Assembly (NCBI RefSeq): GCF_019974155.1
Contig: NZ_AP025158.1
Span: 124,001 to 188,000, forward strand
Direction: 5' to 3'
From: Thermus thermophilus
GTDB lineage: Bacteria > Deinococcota > Deinococci > Deinococcales > Thermaceae
DNA length: 64,000 bases
In this document: positions 29,855 through 47,735 of the stretch, piece by piece
Layout: every line of letters starts with the position of its first letter
Numbering within the stretch: the stretch's first letter is position 1
The notes under the pieces: generated by a model
What the model was told of the DNA's origin: nothing
Databases searched by the model: none
Seen by the model: only the letters and a program-made list of their open reading frames with translations
Program-made: the position numbers and the translations under genes

Positions 29855-31681
29855 ATGAAGACCCCTGCTTGGTCCAGACTCGCCGGCTACGCCTGGGGCG
29901 TCCTCCTCTGGAACGTCCTCGTGGCCCTCTTCGGGGCCTACGTGCGGGCCACGGGCTCGGGGGCGGGGTGCGGCTCCCACTGGCCCACCTGCAACGGGGA
30001 GGTGATCCCCCGCGCGCCTCAGGTGGAGACCCTCATTGAGTTCACCCACCGGGCCACCTCGGGCCTGGCCTTCCTCTCCGTCCTCGCGCTTTTCCTCTGG
30101 GCGCTCCGGGCCTTCCCCAAGGGGCACCCGGCCCGCTTCGGCGCCGGGCTTGCCCTCCTCTTCATGGTTACGGAGAGCCTGGTGGGGGCCTCCTTGGTCC
30201 TCTTCGGCTGGACGGCGGACAACGTAAGCCCTGAGAGGGCCGTGGTCCAGATGGTCCACCTGGTTAACACCTACTTCCTCCTCGCCGCCCTGGCCCTCAC
30301 CGCCTGGTGGGCCTCCAGGGGAGCCCCCTTGCGCCTTCGGGGACAGGGGGCCGTGGGGCTCGCCCTCTTCCTCGGGCTTCTCGCCCTCCTCTTCCTGGGG
30401 ATGAGCGGGGCGGTCACCGCCTTGGGGGACCTCCTTTTCCCGGTGCGGAACACCCTCGAGGCCCTGGAGCGCTCCCTGACCCCGGGCGAGCACTTCCTCG
30501 TGCGCCTCAGGGTCCTCCACCCCCTGATCGCCGTAAGCGTGGGGCTTTACGTGGTCTTCGCCGGCTTCTTGGTGGCCCACCTGCGCCCCTCCCCCCTTGG
30601 CCGGCGGCTGGCCCAGGCCCTGGCCTACCTCTACGGGGTCCAGCTTTTGGCGGGGCTCGTGAACGTGGCCCTGAAGGCCCCGGTCTGGATGCAAATCCTC
30701 CACCTCCTCCTGGCCTACGCCATCTGGCTCCTCTTCGTCCTCCTCGCCGCCTCCGCCTTGGAGCGGGGGGCCAGGCGGGTGGAGCTTGGGGAGGGCGGGG
30801 CGGAGGTCCACCGGGGCACGGGCGGGGCCACCTGGCGGGACTACCTCGCCCTCACCAAGCCCCGGGTGATCAGCCTCCTCCTCTTCACCGCCCTCTTCGG
30901 TGCCCTCATCGCCGCCAAGGGCTGGCCCGGCCTCGGGGTCTTTCTCGCCGTGGCCCTAGGGGGGTACATGATGGCCGGGGCGGCCAACGCCATCAACATG
31001 GTGGTGGACCGGGACATTGACGCCCGCATGAAGCGGACCGCCAAGCGCCCCACCGTGACCCAGCGGGTCTCCAGCCGGGACGCCCTCCTCTTCGCCTTCG
31101 CCCTCGCCGTCTTGGGGTTCGCCGTCCTCTGGTGGGGGGCGAACCTCCTCGCCGCCACCCTCGCCCTCATGGGCCTCATCTGGTACGTGCTGGTCTACAC
31201 CCTCTACCTCAAGCGGCGCACCTGGCACAACATCGTCATCGGCGGGGCCGCTGGGGCCTTCCCGCCCCTCGTGGGCTGGGCCGCGGTCACCGGGGAGCTC
31301 AGCCTCTTCGCCTGGTACCTCTTCGCCCTCATCTTCTTCTGGACGCCGGTGCACTTCTGGGCCCTGGCCCTCATGATCCAGGACGACTACCGGGCGGTGG
31401 GCGTGCCCATGCTCCCCGTGGTCCTGGGGGAGCGGGCCACGGTGATCCAGATCGCCCTCTACGCCCTCCTCACCGCCCTGATCTCCCTGATGCCCCTCTT
31501 CCTCGGGGAGCTCGGCCTCCTCTACCTCGCAGCAAGCCTCCTCCTCAACGCCCTTCTCCTTCTGAAAAGCCTGGCCCTCTACCGCCGGCCCGAGCGGAGG
31601 ACCGCGGTTTCCCTGTATAAATACTCCATGCTCTACCTGGCCCTGCTCTTTGCGGCCATGGCGGTAGACCGGGCAGTGTAA
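29855..31681 (+). CDS. ctaAB: Fused heme A synthase-heme O synthase (CtaA-CtaB)
   Basis: Makes heme A for the adjacent caa3 oxidase. The 608-residue membrane protein has an N-terminal CtaA half (about 1-315) with histidine-bearing helices [27 protein letters not shown] and ILHLLLAY plus the cysteines of [13 protein letters not shown] short charged linker follows (about 315-330). The CtaB/Cox10 prenyltransferase half carries the Asp-rich motif [18 protein letters not shown]. In most bacteria these are two genes. The ATG at 29855 follows TAGGG; an ATG at 29828 is possible. Fusion fits sequential use of heme O by heme A synthase. Confidence 0.93.
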
Positions 31682-31695
31682 AGGGAGGTAACGGG

Positions 31696-32709
31696 ATGCG
31701 GAGAAGCTTCGCGGCGCTAGGTCTTTGGGGTCTGTCCCTGGCCCAGGAGGCCCACCGGGTGGCCATCACCCACCCCGGGGGCTCCTTCAACCAGGAGGTG
31801 GCCTTCCTCTTCCCCTGGGTCTACTTCTTCTCCTTCCTGATCTTCCTGGTGGTGGCCGGGTCCTTGGCGTACGTCACCTGGAAGTTCCGGGCAAGGCCTG
31901 AGGACCAGGAGGAACCTCCTCAGATCCACGGGAACGACCGCTTGGAGGTCATCTGGACCTTGATCCCCTTGGCCATCGTCTTCATCCTCTTCGGGCTCAC
32001 GGCCAAGGCCCTCATCCAGGTGAACCGGCCCATCCCCGGGGCCATGAAGGTGGAGGTCGTTGGTTACCAGTTCTGGTGGGACTTCCACTACCCCGAGCTC
32101 GGCCTGCGCAACTCCAACGAGCTCGTCCTCCCCGCCGGGGTGCCCGTGGAGCTGGAGATCACCTCCAAGGACGTGATCCACTCCTTCTGGGTGCCGGGCC
32201 TCGCCGGGAAGCGGGACGCCATTCCGGGACAAACGACCCGGATCTCCTTTGAACCCAAGGAGCCCGGCCTCTACTACGGCTTCTGCGCTGAGCTTTGCGG
32301 GGCGAGCCACGCCCGCATGCTCTTCCGCGTCGTGGTCCTCCCCAAGGAGGAGTTTGACCGCTTCGTGGAGGCGGCCAAGGCCTCCCCGGCCCCCGTGGCC
32401 GACGAACGGGGCCAGCAGGTCTTCCAGCAGAACTGCGCCGCCTGCCACGGCGTGGCCCGGAGCATGCCCCCCGCGGTCATCGGGCCCGAGCTTGGGCTTT
32501 GGGGGAACCGCACGAGCCTGGGGGCGGGCATCGTGGAGAACACCCCGGAAAACCTCAAGGCCTGGATCCGGGACCCCGCGGGGATGAAGCCTGGGGTGAA
32601 GATGCCCGGCTTCCCCCAGCTCTCCGAGGAGGACCTGGACGCTTTGGTGCGCTACCTGGAGGGGCTCAAGGTGGAAGGGTTTGACTTCGGGGCCCTGCCC
32701 AAGTTCTAA
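31696..32709 (+). CDS. caaB: caa3 cytochrome oxidase subunit II fused to cytochrome c
   Basis: Receives electrons and passes them to subunit I. The 337-residue protein starts with a short signal-like segment, then two membrane helices (about 36-62 and 86-108). A cupredoxin domain holds the CuA ligands H162, C197, C201, H205 and M208. A C-terminal cytochrome c domain (about 236-330) has the heme site CAACH at 247-251. The fusion lets a soluble cytochrome donate directly. It follows ctaAB by 14 bp with GGGAGG as ribosome-binding site. Confidence 0.97.
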   Translation: MRRSFAALGLWGLSLAQEAHRVAITHPGGSFNQEVAFLFPWVYFFSFLIFLVVAGSLAYVTWKFRARPEDQEEPPQIHGNDRLEVIWTLIPLAIVFILFGLTAKALIQVNRPIPGAMKVEVVGYQFWWDFHYPELGLRNSNELVLPAGVPVELEITSKDVIHSFWVPGLAGKRDAIPGQTTRISFEPKEPGLYYGFCAELCGASHARMLFRVVVLPKEEFDRFVEAAKASPAPVADERGQQVFQQNCAACHGVARSMPPAVIGPELGLWGNRTSLGAGIVENTPENLKAWIRDPAGMKPGVKMPGFPQLSEEDLDALVRYLEGLKVEGFDFGALPKF

Positions 32710-35097
<2,388 letters not shown>

Positions 35098-35110
35098 CCA
35101 AGAAGGCCCC

Positions 35111-35138
35111 AAAGCCCCCCGCCTAGGCGGGGGGCTTT
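35111..35138. terminator. Terminator after the caa3 operon
   Basis: A 13-bp perfect stem AAAGCCCCCCGCC / GGCGGGGGGCTTT around a TA centre, 13 bp after the caaA stop. The stem ends in TTT on the plus strand and in TTT on the minus strand too, so it could work in both directions. Confidence 0.8.
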
Positions 35139-35156
35139 GCTATGAAAAGGGGAGGG

Positions 35157-35861
35157 ATGCGGCTTTTGGTGGTGGACTTTGACTACTTCTTCCCCGTGCC
35201 CCAAGACCCCAAGGACCCCTTGGCCCCCCTCTTCGCCTGGGCCCACTTTGAGACCCCCTACTACCTCCTCGAGGCCTGGGAGGAGCGGGCCCTGGCCTTC
35301 CTCCTCCGGGGGCTTCCCCTGCCCGAGGCCCGGGGTTGGGAAGGATTTTGGGGGCGTTTCGGCTTCGCGCGGGAAGCGGTGCTCTACTACGCCGAAAGCA
35401 ACGCCCTCGCCTTCCACCCCAAGGTGCGCCGGGGCGTGGAGGAGGTGGTCCTCTTTGACGCCCACCACGACGCGGGCTACCGCCCCTTGGGGGAGGAGCC
35501 CGCCTGCGACGACTGGATGGTCTTCTACCACCGCCTGGGGGCGAGGCTTCGGGTCTACTACCCCCCCTGGCGGGACCCTTCCTTGGAGCCCGAGCCAAGG
35601 GTGCCCGTGGCCCGGGAAGTGGACCCCGGGGGGAGGGTGGAAGGGGTGTTCCACCGCGTCTTCCTCTGCCGGAGCGGGGCCTGGGTGCCTCCCTGGGCCG
35701 ACCCCGGCTTCTTCGCCTTCCTGGAGGAAGCTCCCCTGCCCAAGGTGGCCCTCGAGGCCCTCCTTCCCAGGCCCTTTTCCCTGGAGACCCTGAAGCGGCG
35801 GGTGGCCCTCGAGGGGTTCGGCTTGCGCTTCATGGAGCGCCTGAGAGGCAGGGCCGGCTAA
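35157..35861 (+). CDS. UPF0489/arginase-fold-like protein of unknown function
   Basis: A 234-residue protein. It opens with LLVVDFDYFFPVP and has VVLFDAHHDAGY near residue 100, followed by CDDWMVFYHRLG. The DAHHD motif is the metal-binding signature of ureohydrolase (arginase-fold) enzymes. Together with the early DxDxF motif it is reminiscent of the UPF0489 family and the peptide arginases that turn arginine into ornithine in peptides. No partner precursor peptide or maturase is visible, so the substrate is unknown. The ATG at 35157 has AAAGGGGAGGG before it; an ATG at 35142 lies in the terminator tail. It is flanked by the caa3 terminator and a tRNA cluster. Confidence 0.75.
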   Translation: MRLLVVDFDYFFPVPQDPKDPLAPLFAWAHFETPYYLLEAWEERALAFLLRGLPLPEARGWEGFWGRFGFAREAVLYYAESNALAFHPKVRRGVEEVVLFDAHHDAGYRPLGEEPACDDWMVFYHRLGARLRVYYPPWRDPSLEPEPRVPVAREVDPGGRVEGVFHRVFLCRSGAWVPPWADPGFFAFLEEAPLPKVALEALLPRPFSLETLKRRVALEGFGLRFMERLRGRAG

Positions 35862-35865
35862 GCGG

Positions 35866-35894
35866 TGGACAACCCTCTCCCCTTGGCCTATAAT
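35866..35894 (+). promoter_or_regulatory. tRNA operon promoter
   Basis: TGGACA (35866-35871), a 17-bp spacer and TATAAT (35889-35894) are one base off consensus in total. The -35 box starts 5 bp after the stop of the arginase-like gene. Transcription would begin near 35901, just before the tRNA-Lys gene. This is the best promoter in the window. Confidence 0.88.
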
Positions 35895-35907
35895 CACAAA
35901 GGCTATT

Positions 35908-35983
35908 GGGCCGTTAGCTCAGCTGGCAGAGCAACCGACTTTTAATCGGTAGGTCGCAGGTTCGAATCCTGCACGGCCCACCA
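35908..35983 (+). tRNA. tRNA-Lys (UUU)
   Basis: A 76-nt cloverleaf: acceptor GGGCCGT pairs with ACGGCCC, D-arm TAGCTCAGCTGGCAGAGC, anticodon stem CCGAC... with loop CTTTTAA (anticodon TTT), T-arm GCAGGTTCGAATCCTGC, and an encoded CCA end. First gene of a three-tRNA transcript. Confidence 0.97.
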
Positions 35984-35989
35984 AGCCGA

Positions 35990-36064
35990 GGCCCCATCGT
36001 CTAGCGGTTAGGACGCGGCCCTCTCAAGGCCGAGGCGGGGGTTCGACTCCCCCTGGGGTCACCA
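35990..36064 (+). tRNA. tRNA-Glu (CUC)
   Basis: A 75-nt cloverleaf: acceptor GGCCCCA with TGGGGTC, anticodon loop CTCTCAA (anticodon CTC), T-arm GGGGGTTCGACTCCCCC, discriminator A and an encoded CCA. It lies 6 nt after tRNA-Lys. CTC reads GAG only, the dominant Glu codon in this GC-rich genome. Confidence 0.97.
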
Positions 36065-36065
36065 C

Positions 36066-36142
36066 GGGCGGCTAGCTCAGCTGGCCAGAGCACTCGCCTT
36101 ACAAGCGAGAGGTCAGAGGTTCAAATCCTCTGCCGCCCACCA
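36066..36142 (+). tRNA. tRNA-Val (UAC)
   Basis: A 77-nt cloverleaf: acceptor GGGCGGC with GCCGCCC, anticodon stem CTCGC/GCGAG with loop CTTACAA (anticodon TAC), T-arm CAGAGGTTCAAATCCTCTG and an encoded CCA. It starts one base after tRNA-Glu. An integrase gene points at its 3' end, so this is the likely attachment site of the adjacent island. Confidence 0.97.
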
Positions 36143-36160
36143 TGATGGAAACCCAAAACT

Positions 36161-36184
36161 CCCCGCCTCGGAAGTGAGGCGGGG
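36161..36184. terminator. Hairpin between the tRNA cluster and the integrase gene
   Basis: A 9-bp stem CCCCGCCTC / GAGGCGGGG with loop GGAAGT. On the minus strand it is followed by AGTTTTGGGTTT, so it can terminate the integrase transcript. On the plus strand it may end the tRNA transcript without a T-run. Confidence 0.7.
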
Positions 36185-36191
36185 AAACCCA

Positions 36192-36215
36192 TTTATGGCA
36201 GTTTTTATGGCAGTT
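36192..36215. repeat. Two tandem copies of a 12-bp repeat beside the integrase gene
   Basis: TTTATGGCAGTT occurs twice head to tail (36192-36203 and 36204-36215), ending 4 bp before the integrase stop codon. AT-rich short direct repeats next to a tRNA-targeting integrase are typical of integrase arm-binding sites; that role is inferred. Confidence 0.85.
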
Positions 36216-36219
36216 GGCC

Positions 36220-37392
36220 TCAAGCCTGGGGCCGGGGCTGCGAACCCTTGAGCAGGGCCTCCAGGTCCAGGACGTAGCCTCGCCGCTCCTCCTCCAGGAG
36301 ATGGCGGTAGATCCCTAGGGTGACGTTGGGGCTGGCATGGCCGAGCCGCTCGCTCACCACTTCCAGGGGAATGCCGCGGGAGAGGGCCAAGGTAGCCCAG
36401 GTGTGCCTCAAGTCGTGCACCCTCACCTTCCCTAGCCCTGCCCTTTGGGCCAGGCGGCGGAGGTAGTGGTTGAAGGCATCGGGGTCAAAGGGCCGGTCCC
36501 CGCCAAAGAGAAAGGTCTCCTCAAGTTCCCTGGGGGTCAGCCGTTCCAGGAGCTCCTCCCGCAGGGTCCGAAGGCGTTCCCCAAGACCAGGGGGCAAGGG
36601 GACGATCCGTTTGGCCGCCCGGGTCTTGGGGGAGGTGAAGCTTCCCTTGCCGTTCACCTTGACCCAAGCCCGCCAGACCCGAAGCTCTCCCCGCTCCAGG
36701 TCCACGTCCTTCCACTGCAAGGCCAGGGCTTCCCCCCTGCGGAGTCCGGTCTCCAGGACCAGACGGAGCAAGAGGGCCATCTCCCGGCTCCGGGACCGGT
36801 CGGCTTCCCCGAGCAGCTGCTCGATCTCCCAGGGTTCCAAAGCCCGAGCGGCCTTTTCCCCCTCCGGCAGACGGAGCTTGAGCCCTTCCGCGGGATTGCG
36901 GACAAGGAGTTCCAGGGCCACGGCCTCCCGAAAGAGGGCCTTGAGCCGGGTGTAGACCTTCCGCACCGTTCGGGGGGCGTAGCCTTCCCTCACCCGGTTC
37001 AGGACCTCCTGCAGGTGAAGGGGCTTCACTTCCTGGAGCCTCAGGGAGCCGAACGGATCCGGCTGGTTGGGGTCTTTCAGGGAAGGAATCGCATAGGCCA
37101 ACTCCAGGCGGGCGAGCCGGAGGGAGTTTGGCCTCAGGCCCTCGGCCTCCAGCTGCTTGAGGTAGTGCAAGGCAAACTCCCGGACCGTGGCCCGGCTGGG
37201 AACGGCCAGGAGGCCTTTATGCCGCTGGCTCACCAACTCGGCCCGCAACGCCTCGGCCTCCCGCCTGGTGTCCGCGTACTTGACCACACGGGCCGTCTTT
37301 CCCGTGGCCTCCTCGACCCAACGGACCTCCACCACCCACTTGTTCAGCCGCCGGTTGAAGTAAACGCTCCCTCCTCCTCTGCCTCGGGCCAT
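36220..37392 (-). CDS. Tyrosine recombinase/integrase
   Basis: A 390-residue site-specific recombinase. The N-terminus (about 1-60) resembles an AP2-like arm-DNA-binding domain (GSVYFNRRLNKWVVEVRW). A SAM-like core-binding domain follows (about 65-170), then the catalytic domain with R218 (TGLRRGEAL), K256, H326-x-x-R329 (HDLRHTWA), H352 (LGHAS) and nucleophile Y362 (GIYRHLL). All catalytic residues are present. It reads toward tRNA-Val, ending 78 bp from it, the usual arrangement for tRNA-integrated elements. Its codons use more A and T in third position than flanking genes. Confidence 0.95.
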   Translation of the reverse strand: MARGRGGGSVYFNRRLNKWVVEVRWVEEATGKTARVVKYADTRREAEALRAELVSQRHKGLLAVPSRATVREFALHYLKQLEAEGLRPNSLRLARLELAYAIPSLKDPNQPDPFGSLRLQEVKPLHLQEVLNRVREGYAPRTVRKVYTRLKALFREAVALELLVRNPAEGLKLRLPEGEKAARALEPWEIEQLLGEADRSRSREMALLLRLVLETGLRRGEALALQWKDVDLERGELRVWRAWVKVNGKGSFTSPKTRAAKRIVPLPPGLGERLRTLREELLERLTPRELEETFLFGGDRPFDPDAFNHYLRRLAQRAGLGKVRVHDLRHTWATLALSRGIPLEVVSERLGHASPNVTLGIYRHLLEEERRGYVLDLEALLKGSQPRPQA

Positions 37393-37470
37393 GTCGGGAC
37401 CCCCTAGGGGGATTCTGCTTCATCCCCGGCCTTCTGGTCTAGCCCGATCAAGATGGCAGGGCCGTCCCCT

Positions 37471-39063
37471 TCACTCCGCCAACAGGACCTTGACCTCGTC
37501 CCCTACGAGCTCCAGCCACCGCTCGGGTTGCTCGGTGTGCACCGGCAAAAGGTACCTGGGTTTGAGACGGCGCACCATCTCCAGGAGAAACCCTTCGGGG
37601 GCATGACCGGAGGTGTGGAAGGGGTTGCCCACTTCCCCTGCGTTTGAGGGGAGTTTGGCAAGGTCTTCTGGGTAAAGCCGAAAATCCAAGGCCGCGAGCC
37701 ATTGGAGGAGCACCTTGAGGTCAAGGATCTGCTCTTGGTCCGCCCAGTAGGAGTTGCTGAAGACGTAGATTCCCGTCCGGGAGGGCCTGCCCAAGTCCCT
37801 TTCCATGAGGCGGAAGTCCAGGAGGCGGTTGACCTCGTAGAACCCGAAGGCTAGCACGTACGCCTCAGGGCCCTTTGCGATCTCCTCTAGGGTGATGGCA
37901 TCAACCCTTCCATCGTCCCAAACCGCCTCCTCCCACCCTGGCCTGCGGCCCTTGCCCTCCCGAAGCACCTTGACCCGCGAAAGAACATCGCTCCAGGTGG
38001 TCTCGGCTTCGGAGAGGGCCATGAGGAGGTAGGCGTCCTTGGGGGTGACCACCAGCTTGCGTCCCAGGCTTTCCCCTACCTCCAGGGTAGAGAGAAGGCG
38101 TTCCAGGTTGCGAGGGGCAAAATCCACCGCGACGGGGGCATCGGGGTGTCCCTTGAGCAGTCGGTGGAGGGCCTCTTTCACATCCATCTCGGTGTAGGTC
38201 TTGGAGTCCCGCCCTAGCCGAGTCCCTTCCGTGATGAGCAGGAAAACCTCCTTGTCCTCCAGGTTCTGTAGGAAGTCCTCCGTCTTTTGTCCCCAGTGCC
38301 CGTGGCGGCGCAGGTCCCCGGTGTACACCACCAGACCCTCGGGCGTGTCTAGAGCAAAGGCACAGGCTCCGGGGATGGAGTGGTCCACGGGGAAAGCCTT
38401 CACCCGGAAAGGGCCTAAATCGAGGGGATCAGGAGCTCCTTCCCAAAGGAAGCCTTCCAAGGCCTTGGTCTTGGCGGGTGAGGCTTGGGGGAAGTGGGAC
38501 AGCTGTCCGTGGAGAAGACGGAAGGGACGGCGGAGGTAGCTCTTGCCCTTGGCGGCAAGGACACCCTCATTGGGATCCAGGATGCGGGGGTTCAAGTAGG
38601 CGGCTTCCCCGTCAAGGCCCACCTGCGAAGCGTCCTGCATGGCTTTAGCTATGGCGGCTGTGGCCGCGGTGGCCACTACGGGAAGGTCCCTACGCAAATA
38701 GGCCACCGCGCCAGAATGGTCCAAGTGGGCATGGGTGAGGAGGAGGGCTAGGACCTTTTCCCCGTCCAGTTGCGCCTTCAGGAGACTCCTCTCTCGGGGG
38801 GAGGGGAAAAGGGTGTCGTCGTTTCCGTCCCGGTAAAGACCAGGGATAGGGGGTAGAAGGCCTAAGAAGAGAAGGTCCCGCAAGCCCAAGCCTGAGCGAG
38901 GGGTGAGGAATTCGGTGAAGTGGTTTCCCCAACGGGCGAAGGCCTTGCCAAAATCCAGAAGCAAAGATCCAGCCTCTGTGTCCAGAAGGATTTGGTTGCC
39001 GCCAATTTCGCGGTAGCCCCCGAATATGTGGACCTTTAGGGCACCCAGGTCGAGGGATTTCAT
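37471..39063 (-). CDS. RNase J-like metallo-beta-lactamase/beta-CASP nuclease
   Basis: A 530-residue protein with the MBL zinc motif THAHLDHSG (HAHLDH at 111-116), the further ligands H228 (VDHSIPGA) and D250 (YTGD). The beta-CASP and RNA-specificity motifs HTSGHA (483-488) and PVHTEQP (H509) are as in RNase J and CPSF-73-like nucleases. It lacks the long C-terminal domain of classical RNase J. It should be a zinc-dependent exo/endonuclease acting on RNA or DNA. It is the only non-mobility gene of the island and has lower GC than its surroundings. The ATG at 39063 follows GGGAAGGTGG; a GTG at 39072 is possible. Confidence 0.85.
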   Translation of the reverse strand: MKSLDLGALKVHIFGGYREIGGNQILLDTEAGSLLLDFGKAFARWGNHFTEFLTPRSGLGLRDLLFLGLLPPIPGLYRDGNDDTLFPSPRERSLLKAQLDGEKVLALLLTHAHLDHSGAVAYLRRDLPVVATAATAAIAKAMQDASQVGLDGEAAYLNPRILDPNEGVLAAKGKSYLRRPFRLLHGQLSHFPQASPAKTKALEGFLWEGAPDPLDLGPFRVKAFPVDHSIPGACAFALDTPEGLVVYTGDLRRHGHWGQKTEDFLQNLEDKEVFLLITEGTRLGRDSKTYTEMDVKEALHRLLKGHPDAPVAVDFAPRNLERLLSTLEVGESLGRKLVVTPKDAYLLMALSEAETTWSDVLSRVKVLREGKGRRPGWEEAVWDDGRVDAITLEEIAKGPEAYVLAFGFYEVNRLLDFRLMERDLGRPSRTGIYVFSNSYWADQEQILDLKVLLQWLAALDFRLYPEDLAKLPSNAGEVGNPFHTSGHAPEGFLLEMVRRLKPRYLLPVHTEQPERWLELVGDEVKVLLAE

Positions 39064-39120
39064 AGGCCCCACCTTCCCTGAAAGGAGTGTACCGGGACTT
39101 CCTGTGAAAGCGGCAGGTTA

Positions 39121-40176
39121 AGTGCCAATCCTTTATCATCTCAACATGGCAGCCCCCCTTCGGATCCAGCTGACCCCTGAGGAGGACCGGCTCCTCCTGG
39201 AGCTCTCCCTGGACCCAAGGACCCACAAGAAGACCCGCCTGTGGGCCATGATGGTCCGCCTGGCGGCCCAGGGCTGGACCGCCCCAAAGATCGCCCAGCA
39301 CTTCCACAAGGACCGCACCACCGTCTACCTCGTCCTCAGGCGCTTCCTGAGGGAGGGCCTCCAAGGCCTCGTCTACCGCAAACCCCCGGGAGCCCCCAGG
39401 AAGTTCACCCCGGAGATGGCCGCCTTCGTGGAGGAGAAACTGGCGGAAGATCGGGTCTGGACCGCCCCGCAACTTGCGGAGGCCATAGCCGAGCGCTTCG
39501 GGGTCCGCCTGGCCCCCAAGGTGGTGGCCCGGCACCTCAGGGCCATGGGGTATGTGTGGAGACGGACGCGGTACGTGCCCAGGGGTAGACCGGAGGCGGA
39601 AGAGGTGGAAGCCTTTGTGAAGGAGGAAGAGGAGGCAAAAAGGGGGCTCAGGAGGGGGTGATGGAGGTGGGGTACTTGGACGAGAGCGGGTTTGCCCTGA
39701 CCCTGCCTCCCACGTACGCCTGGTGCCGGAGGGGGGAGGCGAAGGGGGTGCCGCGGGCGTGGGGCAAGGAGGGGCGGGTGAACGTGGTGGGGCACCTGGT
39801 GCGGGGCCGGGAGGGGGAGCGGCTTTTCTTTGCCCTTTTGGAGGGGCCGGTGCGGTGGGAGGTGGTGCGGGGGTATCTGGACCGGGTGGCCGAGGGGTTG
39901 ACCAAGCCCCTGAAGGTTTTCCTGGACAACGCGCCTTTCCACCGGTCCCGTGGGGTGGAGGGGAGGAGGGGGGTGTGGCGAGGGCGGGGGCTGGAGGTGG
40001 CCTACCTGCCGCGGTACAGCCCCCATTTGAACCCCATGGAGAACATCTGGCGGCGGGTGAAGGGGTTTTTGATGCCGAGGCGGCACTACGGGAGCCTTGA
40101 AGAGCTGAAGGACGCGGTAGTGCAGGCCCTAAAGGCCCTGGGGGGTGTGGAGTTGAAAATCTTGGAGGAGGGCACT
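39121..40176 (+). mobile_element. IS630-family insertion sequence
   Basis: A 1056-bp element flanked by TA on both sides (39119-39120 and 40177-40178), the target duplication of the IS630/Tc1 superfamily. Ends are AGTGCC... and ...GGCACT. The inverted repeats are imperfect: the outer 6 bp match exactly, and TCAAC matches again at positions 21-25 in each end. It carries a two-frame transposase and separates the RNase J-like gene from a TnpB remnant. Confidence 0.88.
39122..39661 (+). CDS. IS630 transposase, N-terminal frame (helix-turn-helix part)
   Basis: 179 residues from a GTG at 39122 (an internal ATG at 39146 is likelier as real start). It contains two helix-turn-helix segments, GWTAPKIAQHFHKDRTTVYLVLRRF and a second around VWTAPQLAEAIAERFGVRLAPKVVARHLRAMG, which bind the IS ends. 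The frame ends in TGA overlapping the start of the catalytic frame (GTGATG). A -1 shift near the run CAAAAAGGGGG (39636-39646) would fuse the two, but the slippery site is not canonical. The product is probably used together with the second frame. Confidence 0.85.
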   Translation: MPILYHLNMAAPLRIQLTPEEDRLLLELSLDPRTHKKTRLWAMMVRLAAQGWTAPKIAQHFHKDRTTVYLVLRRFLREGLQGLVYRKPPGAPRKFTPEMAAFVEEKLAEDRVWTAPQLAEAIAERFGVRLAPKVVARHLRAMGYVWRRTRYVPRGRPEAEEVEAFVKEEEEAKRGLRRG

Positions 40177-40179
40177 TAG
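39658..40179 (+). CDS. IS630 transposase, C-terminal frame (DDE catalytic part)
   Basis: 173 residues with the DDE triad intact: D8 in YLDESGF, D90 in VFLDNAPFH, and E128 in SPHLNPMENIWRRVKG. Start is GTG at 39658 or ATG at 39661, overlapping the stop of the first frame, so translational coupling through GGAGGGGG is the simplest way to express it. The TAG stop is formed by the last T of the element's neighbour TA plus flanking DNA, meaning the gene runs to the very end of the IS. Confidence 0.88.
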   Translation: MMEVGYLDESGFALTLPPTYAWCRRGEAKGVPRAWGKEGRVNVVGHLVRGREGERLFFALLEGPVRWEVVRGYLDRVAEGLTKPLKVFLDNAPFHRSRGVEGRRGVWRGRGLEVAYLPRYSPHLNPMENIWRRVKGFLMPRRHYGSLEELKDAVVQALKALGGVELKILEEGT

Positions 40180-40706
40180 CTCCCGTCCCCAAGGTTGATC
40201 CGGAGCCGCAAGGCCCCGTCTTCCACGAGAAGCCTCAGGTTGAGGTTGCCGCCTTTAGTCTTGTCTCCCCGGGAGTAGAGGAGGCCTTGCCTCCTCTCCC
40301 TCCACTCCCGCTTGAGCTCCCTCAGGGGCTTGCCCGATAGGTGTCTGCGCTTGAGCTGTTGGAAGAGCTTTCTCCCCCCGAAGACCACCTTCCGGGGGTC
40401 TTCTCCTCTCTCCCTGGCAGAGTCCAGGACGGCTTGGGCCTTCAGGATCGCGTCGTCGGCGTAGCGGGTGTTGAGGCGGAAGGAGGTGCAGAGGAAACCG
40501 TCTGCCCGTTTAAGCTCCTCTCTGGTCTGACCTTCCAGAAGGCGGTTGTAGGCGTAGCGCACCCCAGCGGAGAAGCGGCGCATGAGGTCCAGGGTGGCCT
40601 TGTGGTCCTCTTCAGAAGGGAAGAGGAGAAGCGCTTGGACTCCGGTGAAGGCCTTCGCCCTCTCCTTTGAGGTGCGCTCCCGCGCGGCTTTAGGCTTGGC
40701 CTTCAC
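40176..40706 (-). pseudogene. 5' remnant of an IS200/IS605-type TnpB gene
   Basis: A 176-residue open frame from a GTG at 40706, matching the N-terminal part of TnpB (RFSAGVRYAYNRLLEG, LNTRYADDAILKAQAVLDSA, KVVFGGRKLFQQL). It stops at the IS630 border just where the beta-strand NLNLRLLVEDGALRLRINLGDG begins the RuvC-containing half. No RuvC or zinc-finger residues remain, so nuclease function is lost. The rest is not found on the other side of the IS630 copy, so the adjacent sequence was deleted or rearranged. Confidence 0.85.
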
Positions 40707-40820
40707 CTGGGGCCTCCTGGGAGGGAGTATACCCGTCTGTGGGCTTTACATTGGGGGAGTTCGCTAGGGTGAGGTGCCGCAAAGCGGGAGCGTTTGAGCG
40801 TCAGGGTGAAGTAGGGTGCG
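40707..40820. other. Non-coding island border
   Basis: This 114-bp stretch holds the TnpB promoter candidate TATACT on the minus strand (40729-40734, GGGTATACTCCC context). A small hairpin CCGC-AAA-GCGG (40777-40787) could be part of an IS605-type left end. No gene is visible. Confidence 0.4.
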
Positions 40821-41381
40821 TTATGTTTCAGCCATCTGCATCTCTTCCGGGCGGATGGAGGTGATGAAGGGCAGGTTGCGGTCAAACTGGGCCCGGTCCA
40901 GGCCGTAGCCGTAGACGTAGGCGTCCTCAATCTCAAAGCCCAGGTAGTGGATGGGCACCTCCACCTGGCGGCGGCTGGGCTTGGAGAGGAGGGCGGCCAC
41001 GCGGACGGAGGCGGGCTTCCGGGCCTCGAGGTAGTCCAGGAGGTAGGCGAGGGTGAGCCCCGTGTCCACGATGTCCTCCACCACGATCACGTCCCGGCCG
41101 TGGATGGGAAGGCGGAGGTCCTTCAGGAGCTCCACCTCCCCGCTTGTTTTAAAGGCGTTCCCGTAGGAGCTGATGGCGATGAAGTCCAGGGTGAGGGGGA
41201 GGGGGATGGCCCGCACCAGGTCGGCCATGAAGATGAAGGCCCCGTTCAGGACGCAGACGAGGTGGGGGGTCTTGCCCTGGTAGTCCCGGGCGATCTCCCC
41301 CCCGAGCTCCTCCACCCGCTTCCTTATGGCCTCGGCGCTGATCTGCACGGGTCCGTTGCCCGGCGTGAACATGCCCTTCAT
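40821..41381 (-). CDS. hpt: Hypoxanthine-guanine phosphoribosyltransferase
   Basis: Salvages hypoxanthine and guanine with PRPP. The 186-residue protein has the PRPP-binding loop VIVVEDIVDTGLTL (about 98-111) and the flexible-loop region SSYGNAFKTSGEVELLKD. The ATG at 41381 overlaps the rluB stop (ATGA); a second ATG at 41372 sits 7 nt behind TAGAAT and may be used from an internal leaderless promoter. The last residues after RPEE (MQMAET) look unlike the end I remember for the T. thermophilus protein. The 3' end may have been replaced at the island border. Confidence 0.93.
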   Translation of the reverse strand: MKGMFTPGNGPVQISAEAIRKRVEELGGEIARDYQGKTPHLVCVLNGAFIFMADLVRAIPLPLTLDFIAISSYGNAFKTSGEVELLKDLRLPIHGRDVIVVEDIVDTGLTLAYLLDYLEARKPASVRVAALLSKPSRRQVEVPIHYLGFEIEDAYVYGYGLDRAQFDRNLPFITSIRPEEMQMAET

Positions 41382-42085
41382 TCTAGCCCCACGAGCCGGA
41401 GGAGGGCCTTGACCTCCTCCTCGGAAAGCCTCCGCCACTTCCCGGGGGGAAGGTCCCCCAGGCGGACGGGCCCCACCTGGAGCCTCAGGAGGCGCCGCAC
41501 GGGGTAGCCCACCCTCTGGAGCATCCGCCGCACCTCCCGCTTACGCCCTTCCGCGAGGACGAGGACCGCCCCCCCGGGGGCCGGGCGGCAGGCGAGGGCC
41601 CGGGCGGGGCCGTCCTCGAGGTCCACGCCCAAGAGGAGCCTCCTGCACACCTCCTTGGGCAGCGTTCCCCCCTCGGTCCACACCCGGTAGACCTTCCGCA
41701 CCCCGAAGCGGGGGTGGGTGAGGCGGTGGGTGAGGTCGCCGTCGTTGGTGAAGAGGAGGAGGCCCTCGGAGTCCCGGTCCAGGCGGCCTATGGGGTGGAG
41801 GCCGGGGATCTTGGGGAGGAGGTCAAAGACGGTGCGCCGGGCGTGGGGGTCGCGGCGGGTGGTGGTGTACCCCTTGGGCTTGTTTAGGGCGAGGACCACC
41901 CGCTCTTGGGGGGGTTCCACCCGCTTCCCGTCCACCTCCACGAGGTCCTCGGGCCCCACCTTCTGGCCGAGGACCGCCACCTCCCCGTTCACCCGCACCC
42001 GCCCCTGGCGGATGAGGTCCTCCGCCTTGCGGCGGCTCGCCACCCCGGCCCGGGCGAGGAAGGCCTGGAGGCGAAAGGGCTTCAT
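41378..42085 (-). CDS. rluB: Pseudouridine synthase, RsuA/RluB family
   Basis: Isomerises a specific uridine of rRNA. The 235-residue protein has an N-terminal S4 RNA-binding domain (FLARAGVASRRKAEDLIRQGRVRVNG, about 6-50). The catalytic domain has D103 in GRLDRDSEGLLLFTNDG and the C-terminal signature EGRKREVRRML. RluB (23S U2605) is preferred over RsuA or RluE from overall layout, but the target site cannot be proven. It overlaps both neighbours by 4 bp in an echA-like-rluB-hpt operon. Confidence 0.9.
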   Translation of the reverse strand: MKPFRLQAFLARAGVASRRKAEDLIRQGRVRVNGEVAVLGQKVGPEDLVEVDGKRVEPPQERVVLALNKPKGYTTTRRDPHARRTVFDLLPKIPGLHPIGRLDRDSEGLLLFTNDGDLTHRLTHPRFGVRKVYRVWTEGGTLPKEVCRRLLLGVDLEDGPARALACRPAPGGAVLVLAEGRKREVRRMLQRVGYPVRRLLRLQVGPVRLGDLPPGKWRRLSEEEVKALLRLVGLE

Positions 42086-42876
42086 GGGAAGCGGGGAGGG
42101 CGCTTCTCCTTGAGGGCCTTTAGGCCCTCCTCCAGCTCCTTCCCGGAGAACCCCAGGAACTCCAGGGCCAAGGAGAGCTCAAAGTGGGGGAGGAAGCTCC
42201 GGTACCAGTGGTTTAGGGCGTGCTTGGTGTGGTGGAGGGCCTCCTTGGGGCCTTGGGCGAGCCTCTCCGCCACCTCGAGGGCCTTCTCGTAGACCCTTTC
42301 GTCCTCCACCGCCAAGGCCACGAGGCCCAGGCGCTCCGCCTCCTCCCCCGTGAGGGGCTCGTTCAGGAGGAGGTGGTACTTGGCCTTGGCCATGCCCACC
42401 ATGAGGGGCCAGAGGAGGACGGCGTGGTCCCCCGCGGCCACCCCCAGGCGCAGGTGGCCGTCAAGAAGCCTGGCGCCCTTGCCCACCACCGCGATGTCGG
42501 CGGCGAGGGCCAAAGCGAGCCCCGCCCCCACCGCCACCCCCTCCACCGCCGCCACCACGGGCCTCGGGAAGTTGAGGGGCCCGAGCACGAGGTCCCTGGC
42601 CTCCCAGAAGACCCGGAGGAGGGCCTCGCGGGAGGCCCGCATCTCCTCAATGAGGCCGAAGGAGCCCCCGGCGGAGAAGACCCCGCCCTCGCCCCGAAGG
42701 AGCACGGCCCTTACGCCCTCCACCGCCTCGAGGTCCCGCCACACCCGGGCCAGGGCCCGGTGGAGGGCAGGGGGCATGGCGTTGAGCTTCTCCCCGCGGA
42801 AGGTGATCTCCAGGACGCCGGGCCTCGGCCAGGCGAAGGCGAGCCCCGGGTAGCGGGCTTCCAAAGAGGCCAGCAT
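42082..42876 (-). CDS. Enoyl-CoA hydratase/isomerase family protein
   Basis: A 264-residue crotonase-fold protein. The CoA-binding strand is FRGEKLNAMPPALH; the oxyanion loops are GGVFSAGGSFGLIEE and VEGVAVGAGLALALAADIAVVG, followed by LRLGVAAGDHAVLLWP. The usual catalytic Glu positions are partly altered (the GVAAGDH region), so the reaction may not be simple hydration. It shares the C-terminal KEKRPPRF ending with the hydratase at 15.8 kb. The ATG at 42876 lies 6 nt behind TAGAAT, indicating a leaderless start. First gene of the operon with rluB and hpt. Confidence 0.88.
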   Translation of the reverse strand: MLASLEARYPGLAFAWPRPGVLEITFRGEKLNAMPPALHRALARVWRDLEAVEGVRAVLLRGEGGVFSAGGSFGLIEEMRASREALLRVFWEARDLVLGPLNFPRPVVAAVEGVAVGAGLALALAADIAVVGKGARLLDGHLRLGVAAGDHAVLLWPLMVGMAKAKYHLLLNEPLTGEEAERLGLVALAVEDERVYEKALEVAERLAQGPKEALHHTKHALNHWYRSFLPHFELSLALEFLGFSGKELEEGLKALKEKRPPRFP

Positions 42877-42882
42877 ACCGCC

Positions 42883-42907
42883 ATTCTATGCCCTCCGGTG
42901 ATACAAT
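42883..42907. promoter_or_regulatory. Divergent promoters of the enoyl-CoA hydratase operon and truB
   Basis: On the minus strand TAGAAT (42883-42888) is 6 nt before the hydratase ATG. On the plus strand TG-A-TACAAT (TACAAT 42902-42907) is an extended -10 element 9 nt before the truB ATG. The whole intergenic region is 40 bp, so -35 contacts of each promoter fall in the other gene or its leader. Confidence 0.6.
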
Positions 42908-42916
42908 CCCCTAGGC

Positions 42917-43855
42917 ATGGCCCTCTACGCGGTGGACAAGCCCCTCCACCTCACCTCCCACGACGTGGTGGAGGAGGCGAGGCGGCGCCTCTCCACGCGA
43001 AGGGTAGGGCACACCGGCACCTTGGACCCCTTGGCCACGGGGCTCCTCCTCCTGGTCACCCACGAGTCCACCAAGCTCGTCCCCTTCCTCTCCGGGGAGG
43101 ACAAGGAGTACATCGCCTGGGTCTCCTTCGGGGCCACCACGCCCACCCTGGACGCGGAGGGGCCCATCAGCGAGGAGGCCCCGGTGCGCTTTGACCGGAA
43201 GGACCTCGAGGCCGCCCTGCCCCGCTTCCTGCAGGTGCGGGAGCAGGTCCCGCCCCTCTACTCCGCCATCAAGGTGGGGGGGAAGCGGGCCTACGAGGCC
43301 GCCCGGGAGGGGAAGCCCTTGGCGCTTGGCCCGCGCCCGGTGCGGTATTTGGAGGTGGAGCTCCTCGCCTTTGACCCCGAGCCCATCCCCCACCCCATCG
43401 CCCCCTCGGCCCGGGGGTGGCGGCTCGCGGAAAGGCGGGGGCGGCCCGTGCGGCTCCCACGCCCCCTCGGGGCCTACCCCACGGCCGTGGTCCGGCTGGT
43501 GGTGGGGCCCGGGACCTACGTCCGGGCCTTCGCCCGGGACCTGGGGGAGATGCTCGGGACCAAGGCCTTCCTCTCGGGGCTCGTCCGCACCCGGGTGGGC
43601 CGGGTGGGGCTGGAGCGGGCCGTGGCCCTCTCCGACCTCTCCCCGGAGAAGGCCATCCCGGAGCTTGACGTTTTGCCCTTTCCCGTGGTGGAGCTTTCCC
43701 ACACCGAGGCCCGGCGGGTGCTGGAGGGGATGCCCCTCCCCATCCCGGCCATGGGGTACGTGACCCTGGTGGACTCCAAGCGGCGCCTCTTGGCCATCGC
43801 CGAGGGGGACGGCTTCAAGCTTAAAATACGGCGCGTGTTTGCGAAGGAGGCATAG
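42917..43855 (+). CDS. truB: tRNA pseudouridine-55 synthase
   Basis: Makes the conserved pseudouridine 55 of the T-loop. The 312-residue protein has the catalytic D37 in [14 protein letters not shown], the [10 protein letters not shown] and [21 protein letters not shown] motifs, and [15 protein letters not shown]. The C-terminus (about 235-312) extends into a PUA-like small domain with [26 protein letters not shown]. It is followed 2 bp later by ald. Confidence 0.96.
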
Positions 43856-43857
43856 CC

Positions 43858-44967
43858 ATGGTGATCGGCGTGCCGAAGGAGATCAAGACCTTGGAGAACC
43901 GGGTGGCCCTCACGCCCGGTGGGGTGGAGAGCCTGGTCAGGCGCGGCCACACCGTGCTGGTGGAGCGGGGGGCTGGGGAGGGCTCGGGGCTTTCCGACGC
44001 GGAGTACGCCCGGGCCGGGGCCGAGCTTGTGGGCCGGGAGGAGGCCTGGGGTGCGGAGATGGTGGTGAAGGTGAAGGAGCCCCTACCCGAGGAGTACCCC
44101 TTCCTGCGGGAGGGCCTCATCCTCTTCACCTACCTGCACCTGGCCGCGGACCGCGGCCTCACCGAGGCCATGCTCCGTAGCGGGGTCACGGGCATCGCCT
44201 ACGAGACCGTCCAACTTCCCGACGGCACCCTCCCCCTCCTCGTCCCCATGAGCGAGGTGGCGGGGCGGATGGCCCCCCAGGTGGGGGCCCAGTTCCTGGA
44301 GAAGCCGAAGGGGGGCCGGGGGGTCCTCCTCGGGGGGGTGCCGGGGGTGGCCCCGGCCAGCGTGGTGATCCTCGGGGGTGGGACCGTGGGCACCAACGCG
44401 GCCAAGATCGCCCTGGGCATGGGGGCCCAGGTGACCATCCTGGACGTGAACCACAAGCGCCTCCAGTACCTGGACGACGTCTTCGGCGGGCGGGTGGTCA
44501 CCCTCACCGCCACCGAGGCCAACATCAAGAAGAGCGTCCAGCACGCGGACCTCCTCATCGGGGCCGTCCTCGTCCCCGGGGCCAAGGCCCCCAAGCTCGT
44601 CACCCGGGACATGCTCTCCTTGATGAAGGAGGGGGCGGTGATCGTGGACGTGGCCGTGGACCAGGGGGGGTGCGTGGAGACCATCCGGCCCACCACCCAC
44701 GCCGAGCCCACCTACGTGGTGGACGGGGTGGTCCACTACGGGGTGGCCAACATGCCCGGGGCGGTGCCCAGGACCAGCACCTTCGCCCTCACCAACCAGA
44801 CCCTGCCCTACGTGCTGAAGCTCGCGGAGAAGGGCCTCGAGGCCCTCCTGGAGGACCCCGCCCTTCTCAAGGGGCTCAACACCCACAAAGGCCGCCTCAC
44901 CCACCCCGGGGTGGCCGAGGCCTTCGGCCTGACCTACACGCCTCCCGAGGAGGCCTTGAGGGGGTGA
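43858..44967 (+). CDS. ald: Alanine dehydrogenase
   Basis: Interconverts L-alanine and pyruvate plus ammonia with NAD(H). The 369-residue protein has the AlaDH/PNT N-terminal domain ([20 protein letters not shown]), the substrate residues K73 (KVKEPL) and H94 (YLHLAAD), and the NAD Rossmann motif [17 protein letters not shown]. The ending [13 protein letters not shown]-like segment is family typical. The fold is shared with pntA1 in this window. The stop overlaps the next gene (GTGA). Confidence 0.97.
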
Positions 44968-45311
44968 GGGTGCCGGGACGGGTGGTCCTCACGGAGGCGG
45001 CCTTGGCGAGCCTCCTCGCCCTGGTGGCCCACGAGGTCCCAGGGGTGGTGGGCATGGCCCCCGCGGGCCTCAGGGACCAGGTGGGGCGGATCCTCAGGCG
45101 GCAGGAGGCGGGGGAGGGAGTGGTGGTCCGTCCCGACCCCCAAAGCCCGGGCCGCTACCAGGTGGACCTCTACGTGGTCCTGGCCTACGGCACCCGGGTG
45201 CCGGCCTTGGCGGAGGCCTTGGGGGAGCGGCTCGCCTACGCGGCCCGCCACCTTGGGGGGGTGGAGCTCTCCCAGGTCCGGGTCCACGTGGTGGGGGTGC
45301 GGTGTGGCTAG
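44964..45311 (+). CDS. Asp23/Gls24 (YloU-like) family protein
   Basis: A 115-residue protein with the Asp23 pattern: a helix [23 protein letters not shown], a strand with VVVRPDPQ, and the terminal [46 protein letters not shown]. Family members (YloU) sit directly before the fatty-acid kinase gene in many Gram-positives, as here. Start is GTG at 44964 (overlapping ald) or GTG at 44970. It overlaps fakA by 8 bp. Function is unclear; envelope stress or membrane tethering is known for relatives. Confidence 0.85.
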
Positions 45312-46872
45312 GGCCTGGGGTCCCGAGGCGGTGGCGGAGGCCTTCCGCTACGCCACCCGCTGGTTTCAGGTCTACGTGGAGGAGCTCAACGCGCTCAACG
45401 TCTACCCCGTCCCCGACGGGGACACGGGCACCAACATGCTCCACACCCTGGAGGCGGCCCGGCGGGAGCTGGACCTCGCCGACACCTCCCGGATGGACCA
45501 GGTGGCCCGGGCCCTGGCCTACGGGAGCCTCCTCGGCGCCCGGGGCAACAGCGGGGTGATCCTCTCCCAGATCCTCCGGGGCTTCGCCGAGGCCTTGAAG
45601 GGAAAAAGGGCTTTGGACGGGTCCCTCCTCCGCCGGGCCTTGCGGATGGGGGCGGAAAGCGGCTACAGGGCGGTGATGCGCCCCGTGGAGGGCACCATCC
45701 TCACCGTGGCCCGGGCCGCCGGGGAGGGGGCCCGGGGGGAGGCCCTGGAGGAGGTCTTGGATACCGCCCTCGAGGCCGCCCGGGAGGCCTTGGAGAGGAC
45801 GCCCGAACTCCTCCCCGCCCTGCGCCGGGCCGGGGTGGTGGACGCGGGTGGGGCGGGGTACGTGCGGCTTTTGGAGGGGATCCGGGGGTACGCCCTGGGC
45901 CTGCCCTTGCCCGAGCCGCCCAAGGTGGAGCGCTACGCCCAGACGGCCTTCGCCACGGAGGAGTTCGGCTACTGCACGGAGTTCCTCATGGAGGGGGTGG
46001 AGGTGCCCATAGAGAAGATCCGCGAGGCCGTGGCCCCCTTCGGGGACTCCCTCCTCGTGGTGGGGGCCGAGGGCTACGTCAAGGGGCACATCCACACGGA
46101 CGACCCCGACGGCCTCCTCGCTACGGTGGCCCGCTTCGGCCGGGTGGTCCGCACCAAGGTGGAGGACATGACCCAGCAGCACACGGAGATCCTCTCCACC
46201 TTCGGGCTTCTGGCCGAGGAGGTGCCCCCCACGGGCCTGGTGGCCGTGGCCTTGGGCCACGGGGTGGCCCGGGCCTTCCGGAGCCTCGGGGCGCGGGTGG
46301 TGGCCGGGGGGCAGACGCAAAACCCCAGCGTGGAGGACCTCCTGGCCGCCATTAAGAGCGTGCCCAACCCCAAGGTGATCCTCCTCCCCAACAACCCCAA
46401 CGTCTTCCTGGCGGCCATGGAGGCGGCGAAGCTCGCGCGGGAGGCGGGGAAGGAGGTCCACGTGCTCCAGACCCGCACCCTGGGCCAGGGCCTGGCGGCG
46501 GCGGTGCGCTACACCCCCGAGGCCCTTCCCGAGGAGCTCCTTCCCGAGATGGAGGAGGCCATGAAGGGGGCGGTGACCCTCGAGGTCACCTGGGCGAGCC
46601 GCGACGCCGAGGTGGAGGGGCTAAAGGTCTTGAAGGACAAGCCCATCGGCCTTCTGGACGGGAGGCTCGTCCTGGTGGGGGAGACCCCCGAGGAAGTGAT
46701 GGAGGGCCTCGTCCGCCTGGCCCGGGAGGGCAAGGAGGTCCTCACCCTCTTCCTCGGGCCCAACACCCCCAAGGAGAAGGCCCAAGGGGTGGCGCAGAAG
46801 TTTCCCGAGCTCGCGGTGGAGATCCTTTCCGGAGGGCCCGACCTCTACGCCTATCTGGGCGTGCTGGAGTAG
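45304..46872 (+). CDS. fakA: Fatty acid kinase catalytic subunit (FakA/YloV), DhaL-domain protein
   Basis: A 522-residue protein that should phosphorylate FakB-bound fatty acids for phospholipid synthesis. The N-terminal DhaL kinase domain (about 10-200) has the metal-binding VYPVPDGDTGTNML, the nucleotide motif GARGNSGVILSQILRG and the DAGGAGYV loop. A central domain contains EGYVKGHIHTDDPDG. The C-terminal part is DegV-like (LGHGVARAFRSLGARVVAGGQTQNPS). No FakB gene is in the window. Start is GTG at 45304, overlapping the Asp23-like gene. Confidence 0.9.
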   Translation: MARAWGPEAVAEAFRYATRWFQVYVEELNALNVYPVPDGDTGTNMLHTLEAARRELDLADTSRMDQVARALAYGSLLGARGNSGVILSQILRGFAEALKGKRALDGSLLRRALRMGAESGYRAVMRPVEGTILTVARAAGEGARGEALEEVLDTALEAAREALERTPELLPALRRAGVVDAGGAGYVRLLEGIRGYALGLPLPEPPKVERYAQTAFATEEFGYCTEFLMEGVEVPIEKIREAVAPFGDSLLVVGAEGYVKGHIHTDDPDGLLATVARFGRVVRTKVEDMTQQHTEILSTFGLLAEEVPPTGLVAVALGHGVARAFRSLGARVVAGGQTQNPSVEDLLAAIKSVPNPKVILLPNNPNVFLAAMEAAKLAREAGKEVHVLQTRTLGQGLAAAVRYTPEALPEELLPEMEEAMKGAVTLEVTWASRDAEVEGLKVLKDKPIGLLDGRLVLVGETPEEVMEGLVRLAREGKEVLTLFLGPNTPKEKAQGVAQKFPELAVEILSGGPDLYAYLGVLE

Positions 46873-46904
46873 CTAAGGCCTCCGGCGGGAGCCTGCGCCC
46901 GGGG

Positions 46905-47549: not shown

Positions 47550-47582
47550 GAGGATCATGAGGGCTAAATGAAGGGGGTTTAG

Positions 47583-47596
47583 CTTCTTATAAGAAG
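47583..47596. repeat. 14-bp perfect palindrome
   Basis: CTTCTTATAAGAAG lies 33 bp after the preceding gene in an AT-rich patch and just before a terminator. It could be a protein-binding site or a small hairpin. Nothing else supports a function. Confidence 0.35.
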
Positions 47597-47600
47597 ACCT

Positions 47601-47633
47601 GCCGCGGTAGGTTCCCGTGCGCCGCGGCTTTTT
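47601..47633 (+). terminator. Rho-independent terminator after the fakA operon
   Basis: GCCGCGG (47601-47607) pairs with CCGCGGC (47622-47628) around a 14-nt loop and is followed by TTTTT (47629-47633). It separates the operon ending at 47549 from the 3D-domain gene. Confidence 0.8.
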
Positions 47634-47660
47634 GAGTTTGCAGAAAACTTACAGATAAAA
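47632..47660 (+). promoter_or_regulatory. Promoter of the 3D-domain gene
   Basis: TTGAGT (47632-47637), a 17-bp spacer and ATAAAA (47655-47660), in the most AT-rich patch of the region. It overlaps the tail of the upstream terminator and would give a leader of about 70 nt. Confidence 0.55.
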
Positions 47661-47713
47661 ACCCGGGGCTTTCATGAGGAAAGCCACCTTCCCCTCTAAG
47701 GGGGCTCAAGGGT
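47660..47713 (+). promoter_or_regulatory. Foldable leader upstream of the 3D-domain gene (three-way-junction-like)
   Basis: AACCC (47659-47663) can pair with GGGTT (47709-47713). Enclosed are two hairpins: GGCTTTC-ATGAG-GAAAGCC (47667-47685) and CCCCT-CTA-AGGGG starting at 47691. A ribosome-binding AGGAGG (47728-47733) follows. The same region also encodes a possible 26-codon leader peptide starting ATG at 47674. It does not match riboswitch classes I can recall. Confidence 0.4.
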
Positions 47714-47735
47714 TCGTCCCCATACTCAGGAGGCG

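Follow-up and report, generated by a model that had tools for sequence, protein, structure and literature searches.

The window analysed here is a 64,000-nucleotide stretch of DNA (contig 1, 124001-188000) from a 2.17 Mb, two-contig Thermus thermophilus genome, and the gene under study is a minus-strand coding sequence (37471-39063) for a 530-residue MBL/beta-CASP nuclease of the EF2904-like lineage, referred to below as P0001. The frame comprises 530 codons with no internal stop, begins at an ATG at 39063 that is preceded by the Shine-Dalgarno-like sequence AAGGTGGGG, and terminates at 37471. Besides the stop-free frame, the gene call was supported by Pfam MBL and RMMBL domains that both scored above their cut-offs, by an AlphaFold2 model and by dN/dS values. 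The GC content of the gene was 61.3%, whereas the 26 other window ORFs taken as genes averaged 69.6% (sd 2.2).

Codirectional with the nuclease gene and 78 bp downstream of it is a tyrosine integrase gene (36220-37392, minus strand; PF00589, 8e-29) of the tRNA-Val-targeting, Int2/ICETh2-like group, which lies between the nuclease gene and a tRNA-Val. Three tRNA genes, overlooked in the original prediction, directly adjoin the integrase, and the last of them is the tRNA-Val(tac) identified by ARAGORN at 36066-36142 on the plus strand. We take this gene to be the attachment site, with its final 48 bp (~36095-36142) as the att core on the basis of a 48-bp repeat in an element of genome G023 and of a related element that occupies this tRNA in genome G020. 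Relatives of the integrase with 68-72% identity were found within ~200 bp of a tRNA-Val in several Thermus genomes, and it is through these relatives, rather than through HB27 Int2 itself, that the window integrase is recognised as an Int2-type enzyme beside a Val-tRNA.

On the other side of the nuclease gene, an IS630-family insertion sequence (39116-40180, plus strand) ends 52 bp upstream of the ATG; its ends were set by copies with 98-99% identity elsewhere in the genome and its transposase is split between two frames (39122-39661 and 39658-40179). This is followed by a remnant of an OrfB/TnpB-type transposase (40176-40706, minus strand) that retains the N-terminal domain only and scored 47.7 bits against the TIGR01765 cut-off of 47.25, and of which a 54-bp segment (40177-40230) is identical to sequences at 33889 and 1598936 of contig 1. 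The far side is occupied by a host gene for hypoxanthine phosphoribosyltransferase (HGPRT; 40821-41438, minus strand), and as HGPRT is not found beside tRNA-Val in the relatives checked, the right end of the element has been lost or rearranged; we infer that it was removed by transposition or rearrangement. A search of the window for a second att copy found none, and the element there is without a flanking 47-51 bp direct repeat.

The published element ICETh2 occupies a Val-tRNA and has a 47-nt repeat (PMC7693054), and in four of the five Int2-type elements that we read, 47-51 bp of the tRNA 3' end recur, exactly or almost so, 7-9.5 kb away. The window element resembles the ICETh2-like elements (Int2, Val-tRNA, 47-nt att) in integrase group, in its tRNA-Val site and in the att size of its relatives, but differs in its use of tRNA-Val(tac), where the five other Int2-type elements read use tRNA-Val(cac), in carrying a beta-CASP nuclease, in having no primase-polymerase between integrase and insertion sequence, and in the loss of its right end. 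The same tRNA-Val is occupied in G020 by an integrase of the same type together with a PIN-like gene, a gene for a DUF433 protein, a HELGH gene (described below) and a helicase-domain gene, and in G023 (L122:258-1478) by an integrase remnant and HepT/MNT toxin-antitoxin genes that two 48-bp tRNA-Val repeats enclose. The genome of the window contains a second element (L138:201-9572; contig 1 ~1087600-1096972), with a 68% relative of the integrase at tRNA-Val(cac) and an exact 47-bp repeat ~9.3 kb away.

Mobility of the P0001 gene, which the original prediction had proposed from context, is well supported by its patchy distribution, its plasmid-borne relatives and the tRNA-Val integration site, although the window copy of the element is probably stranded. 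The IS630 insertion may have interrupted the P0001 promoter region; no sigma-70-like promoter was found near the gene, and an Rfam scan of window positions 30000-48000 returned tRNAs only. Because the element is incomplete and a recent insertion sequence lies so close upstream of the P0001 start, expression in this strain is uncertain.

The catalytic apparatus of P0001 was assessed in an alignment of 30 sequences with 22-38% identity to it, in which MBL motifs 1-4 and beta-CASP motifs A-C were all invariant, placing the protein among the beta-CASP nucleases of the MBL superfamily. Encoded on the minus strand, these are D37 (motif 1; 38953-38955), HAHLDH at residues 111-116 with H111, H113, D115 and H116 invariant (motif 2; 38716-38733), D227-H228-S229 (motif 3; 38377-38385), D250 of YTGDLRRHG together with the equally invariant R252 and H254 (motif 4, D250 at 38314-38316), E279 of EGTR (motif A; 38227-38229), HTSGHA at residues 483-488 with H483, S485, G486 and H487 invariant (motif B; 37600-37617) and H509 (motif C; 37537-37539). 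The protein ends ~20 residues past motif C, where the host RNase J runs on for ~140 residues. The AlphaFold2 model was of high confidence (pLDDT 89.3, pTM 0.91) apart from residues 82-98, a low-confidence and, judging from the model, probably disordered loop just ahead of the catalytic HAHLDH. Pairwise dN/dS values of the window copy against its relatives were ~0.17-0.29, some pairs being close to saturation at synonymous sites, and these substitution patterns indicate that the window copy is under purifying selection. The full motif set, the reduced GC content, the absence of a C-terminal domain and the flanking integrase and insertion sequence had all been read correctly in the original prediction.

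Phylogenetic analysis altered the identity of the protein. The original prediction had regarded it as a stripped copy of RNase J, and had named as its own refutation a tree in which P0001 was the orthologue of the only RNase J in the host. In our maximum-likelihood tree of 55 proteins, which included an EF2904-like protein and cousins and superseded a first quick tree, P0001 fell in a third lineage (a 37-row clade, support 100/99) apart from both the RNase J clade (100/98) and the CPSF/TTHA0252 clade (100/100). P0001 is thus not the orthologue of the host's sole RNase J, which is encoded elsewhere in the genome, as is a TTHA0252-like protein, and both match P0001 weakly (27% identity over 133 residues for RNase J). 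The EF2904-like protein was recovered within the 37-row clade on a long branch, and the motif-4 block YTGDxRxHG, common to EF2904 and the lineage of P0001, serves as a lineage signature; the corresponding block is HTGDFKLD in the host RNase J and YSGDLGN in TTHA0252. With a single clade and this signature in agreement, the protein is a third-lineage, EF2904-like beta-CASP enzyme.

Profile and structure searches led to the same placement. A profile of the lineage matched EF2904 at 1e-56 and RNase J at 1e-29, with Apollo also among the matches, and the P0001 model gave EF2904 (2az4) as its top structural match (Z 32.1, 407/425 residues), followed by archaeal and bacterial RNase J at Z 24-28. The P0001 score against the NCBIfam RNase J model TIGR00649 was 95.9 bits for a cut-off of 400. 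EF2904 of Enterococcus faecalis, whose structure (PDB 2AZ4) was released in 2005 with function listed as unknown and is the sole solved structure of the lineage, is therefore the closest relative by structure and profile, and it also has no C-terminal domain; it is nevertheless ~100 residues shorter than P0001 and 25% identical to it, and in the one record seen it adjoins sugar-type ABC transporter genes and is not element cargo. An EF2904-like gene on OL539428.1 (L100), a record named as an E. coli plasmid, is accompanied by ABC transporter and LiaFSR genes with the look of a Gram-positive chromosome, and that record is probably misassembled or contaminated.

The characterised families of the superfamily each share features with P0001 and differ in others. 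RNase J, both bacterial and archaeal (aRNase J), has the same fold, two-zinc site, HxSGHA motif B and motif C, but forms a separate clade with another motif-4 block, and the bacterial enzymes carry a C-terminal domain that P0001 is without. The TTHA0252/CPSF-type enzymes share the superfamily, the catalytic metal motifs and the want of an RNase J C-terminal domain, but their fully supported clade excludes P0001, their motif-4 block and insertions are different, and the host owns a copy. Cas14 of type VII CRISPR-Cas is another beta-CASP nuclease that occurs in mobile or defence contexts, with Z ~25 to the P0001 model; however, P0001 is not a Cas14, scoring 29 bits against the NCBIfam NF045584 cut-off of 800, and no known defence gene adjoins its gene.

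The gene is patchily distributed among Thermus genomes, while its lineage is widespread. A P0001-type gene was present in 5 of 27 Thermus genomes and in 6 of 111 genomes of the phylum. The nearest copies were mostly on Thermus and Rhodothermus megaplasmids, full-length relatives with 61-70% identity being carried by megaplasmids of T. brockianus and of T. thermophilus JL-18, TTHNAR1 and HC11 and by Rhodothermus marinus pRMAR01. Plasmids of Thermococcus barophilus and Methanothermobacter tenebrarum carried distant relatives (28-35%), and further ones were found in Chloroflexota, Bipolaricaulota, Archaeoglobus, Lokiarchaeia, Thaumarchaeota, Thermoplasmata and others; among 246 genomes sampled across the class of one Chloroflexota member, 56 matched, some by partial matches. 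Of six carrier genomes that were tested, three contained a second, RNase J-sized match as well. The copy in Moorella thermoacetica (L055; genome G114, contig 24, 15447-16938) is broken, with split frames and an internal TGA, and the gene therefore decays in some hosts. Among viral sequences, IMG/VR held no close relative and one distant cousin (L095), no phage record covered most of P0001, and a BFVD structure search with P0001 gave weak matches only.

Gene neighbourhoods gave a divided answer to the suggestion, made in the original prediction, that the protein could be an anti-phage or anti-plasmid nuclease, for which clustering of its homologues with defence genes was the check named. Clustering was observed around plasmid- and element-borne copies, which lie among toxin-antitoxin, AbiE, CRISPR, Avs2 and restriction genes, but such surroundings are typical of these replicons anyway. 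In the wider lineage it was not observed: the 72 neighbours scanned belonged mostly to metabolic families with few PADLOC hits, some of them generic in appearance (two LmuB hits beside SbcC/SMC-type Pfam hits, one methyltransferase and one CARF protein). No PADLOC model matched P0001 itself at E 0.01, so that it was assigned to no known anti-phage system, and recurring neighbours were confined mainly to subclades, with no operon conserved across the lineage. Evidence on an anti-phage or anti-plasmid role of P0001 is thus mixed, and we regard such a role as possible. On pTBMP1 of Thermococcus barophilus (L013:13288-27280), the beta-CASP relative stands in a long codirectional row with genes for NYN, an HSDR_N-type nuclease, a DUF7662 protein, a glutamine amidotransferase, a gamma-glutamylcyclotransferase, an ADP-ribosylglycohydrolase and a DUF2357/PDDEXK_7 protein, which looks like an unknown multi-gene system.

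Taken together, we favour the interpretation, with a probability of roughly 0.6, that the P0001 gene is cargo of a decayed ICETh2-like element at tRNA-Val and encodes a competent two-zinc beta-CASP RNase of the EF2904-like lineage that chiefly benefits the element. An ICETh2-like integrative element would have entered tRNA-Val with the P0001 gene as cargo and later decayed. The encoded protein would be a catalytically competent, two-zinc, RNase J-like ribonuclease; the case for an active nuclease rests on its invariant catalytic residues, its confidently predicted fold and the purifying selection on its gene. It would likely prefer a 5'-monophosphate and work 5' to 3', since the RNase J-type HxSGHA motif is kept; both the RNA substrate and the 5'-phosphate preference are inferred from motif B and the nearest structures, with the help of published RNase J work (PMC4652760). 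The benefit would most likely fall to the element and not to core RNA decay: P0001 would break down transcripts from rival phages, plasmids or elements, or serve as an effector triggered by stress. Our literature search, as far as it reached, returned no measured activity for any member of the EF2904-like lineage.

Alternatively, P0001 may be a spare RNA-decay or processing enzyme, that is, an accessory RNase for RNA turnover at high temperature that is mobile by chance and plays no part in conflict. The Chloroflexota and archaeal relatives have mostly housekeeping neighbours, and many members may accordingly be routine RNA enzymes of the chromosome; both purifying selection and the RNase J-type motif B fit such a function, for which TTHA0252, an accessory Thermus beta-CASP enzyme that affects many mRNAs, provides a precedent (PMC4229858). 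This outcome is harder to reconcile with the patchiness of the gene in Thermus and in the Chloroflexota class sample, with its carriage on megaplasmids and a tRNA element, and with the two beta-CASP RNases that the host already has, RNase J and TTHA0252 being the two beta-CASP proteins described for T. thermophilus HB8 (PMC4229858). We regard it as a tentative alternative to the element-benefiting RNase favoured above.

A different kind of effector was suggested by a gene of ~337 codons, recognised by its HELGH...EESLAN motifs, that lies directly downstream of the nuclease gene in T. thermophilus HC11 and in genomes G006 and G021, downstream but interrupted in G002, and one gene away with an insertion sequence between in JL-18 and NAR1. 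It was present in four of five nuclease-bearing Thermus genomes and in 4 of 22 others (Fisher p 0.017, uncorrected for kinship). HELGH and EESLAN are invariant among the partner proteins down to 42% identity. The motif suggests a zinc metalloprotease, and the position of its gene next to or near that of the nuclease in T. thermophilus and its near relatives hints at a nuclease-protease pair; the HELGH protein itself gave no family match, no PDB relative by profile and no confirmed protease fold. Pairs of MBL nucleases and proteases are a known defence theme, exemplified by HamM, Avs1a and CanC (PMC12799240), and some Thermus loci resemble them in joining a nuclease of the MBL superfamily to a protease-like gene. 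This can be interpreted as a beta-CASP nuclease held inactive and released by its HELGH/EESLAN partner, in the manner of the gated MBL nucleases of Hachiman, AVAST and canu, and the loop at residues 82-98 ahead of HAHLDH would suit such gating. However, the partner gene is absent from the genome of the window, did not appear next to the Rhodothermus copy and is also found where the nuclease gene is lacking, and the insertions of the family are common to members with no known partner. The published gated nucleases are moreover DNA-uptake-type MBL enzymes paired with trypsin or caspase, and their description mentions no beta-CASP domain (PMC12799240). We consider release by a protease an unlikely explanation of P0001.

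A sister group of beta-CASP genes has a partner of another kind. On alphaproteobacterial plasmids, one Rhodobacteraceae contig and one contig of a viral collection (L096:8661-10933, L097:9644-11885, L098:8712-10906, L099:9668-12491, L070:8751-10909 and L095:6473-8754), the nuclease gene stands beside, or one short step from, a gene of a family with conserved D.E, R.D and F.E.K residues (PD-(D/E)XK-like). The assignment of this family comes from the conserved residues only, as AlphaFold2 with two sequences reached pLDDT 34; no Pfam or PADLOC model fitted those members tested, no PDB relative was found by profile, and a scan of viral contigs for the partner returned nothing. The two genes are a possible undescribed two-gene module. 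It is doubtful that Thermus elements carry a new immune pair in which an EF2904-like beta-CASP RNase would be controlled by the HELGH metalloprotease, a pair that would target RNA and bear no relation to the gated DNase-trypsin ones, with the distant cousins on alphaproteobacterial plasmids using the PD-(D/E)XK-like partner instead.

Two further explanations concern the nature of the enzyme itself. P0001 could be a DNA-acting, SNM1/Artemis-like enzyme that serves element maintenance or DNA repair and does not cleave RNA, given that the beta-CASP superfamily includes DNA nucleases such as Apollo, recovered in the profile search, and that the gene resides on plasmids and elements; its motif B/C pattern and nearest characterised structures nevertheless belong to the RNA-acting branch (RNase J), and a DNA substrate is improbable. 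That P0001 is the host RNase J orthologue, or a recent copy shorn of its C-terminal domain, is contradicted by the separate, fully supported clade of the host enzyme, by the short and weak alignment to it, by the TIGR00649 score and by the YTGDxRxHG signature; the shared MBL/beta-CASP fold, the HxSGHA motif B and the weak NCBIfam RNase J hit speak in its favour, but it is a very remote prospect.

In summary, what had been taken for an RNase J copy marks a third prokaryotic beta-CASP lineage, present in bacteria and archaea, with a conserved active site and a patchy, often mobile distribution, whose Thermus member is probably a ribonuclease and may have a role in conflict. The thermostable members on T. 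thermophilus plasmids make both the substrate of these enzymes and their effects on phages, plasmids and other elements directly testable. Should a conflict role prove true, free-standing beta-CASP enzymes that degrade RNA would join the known tools of mobile elements.
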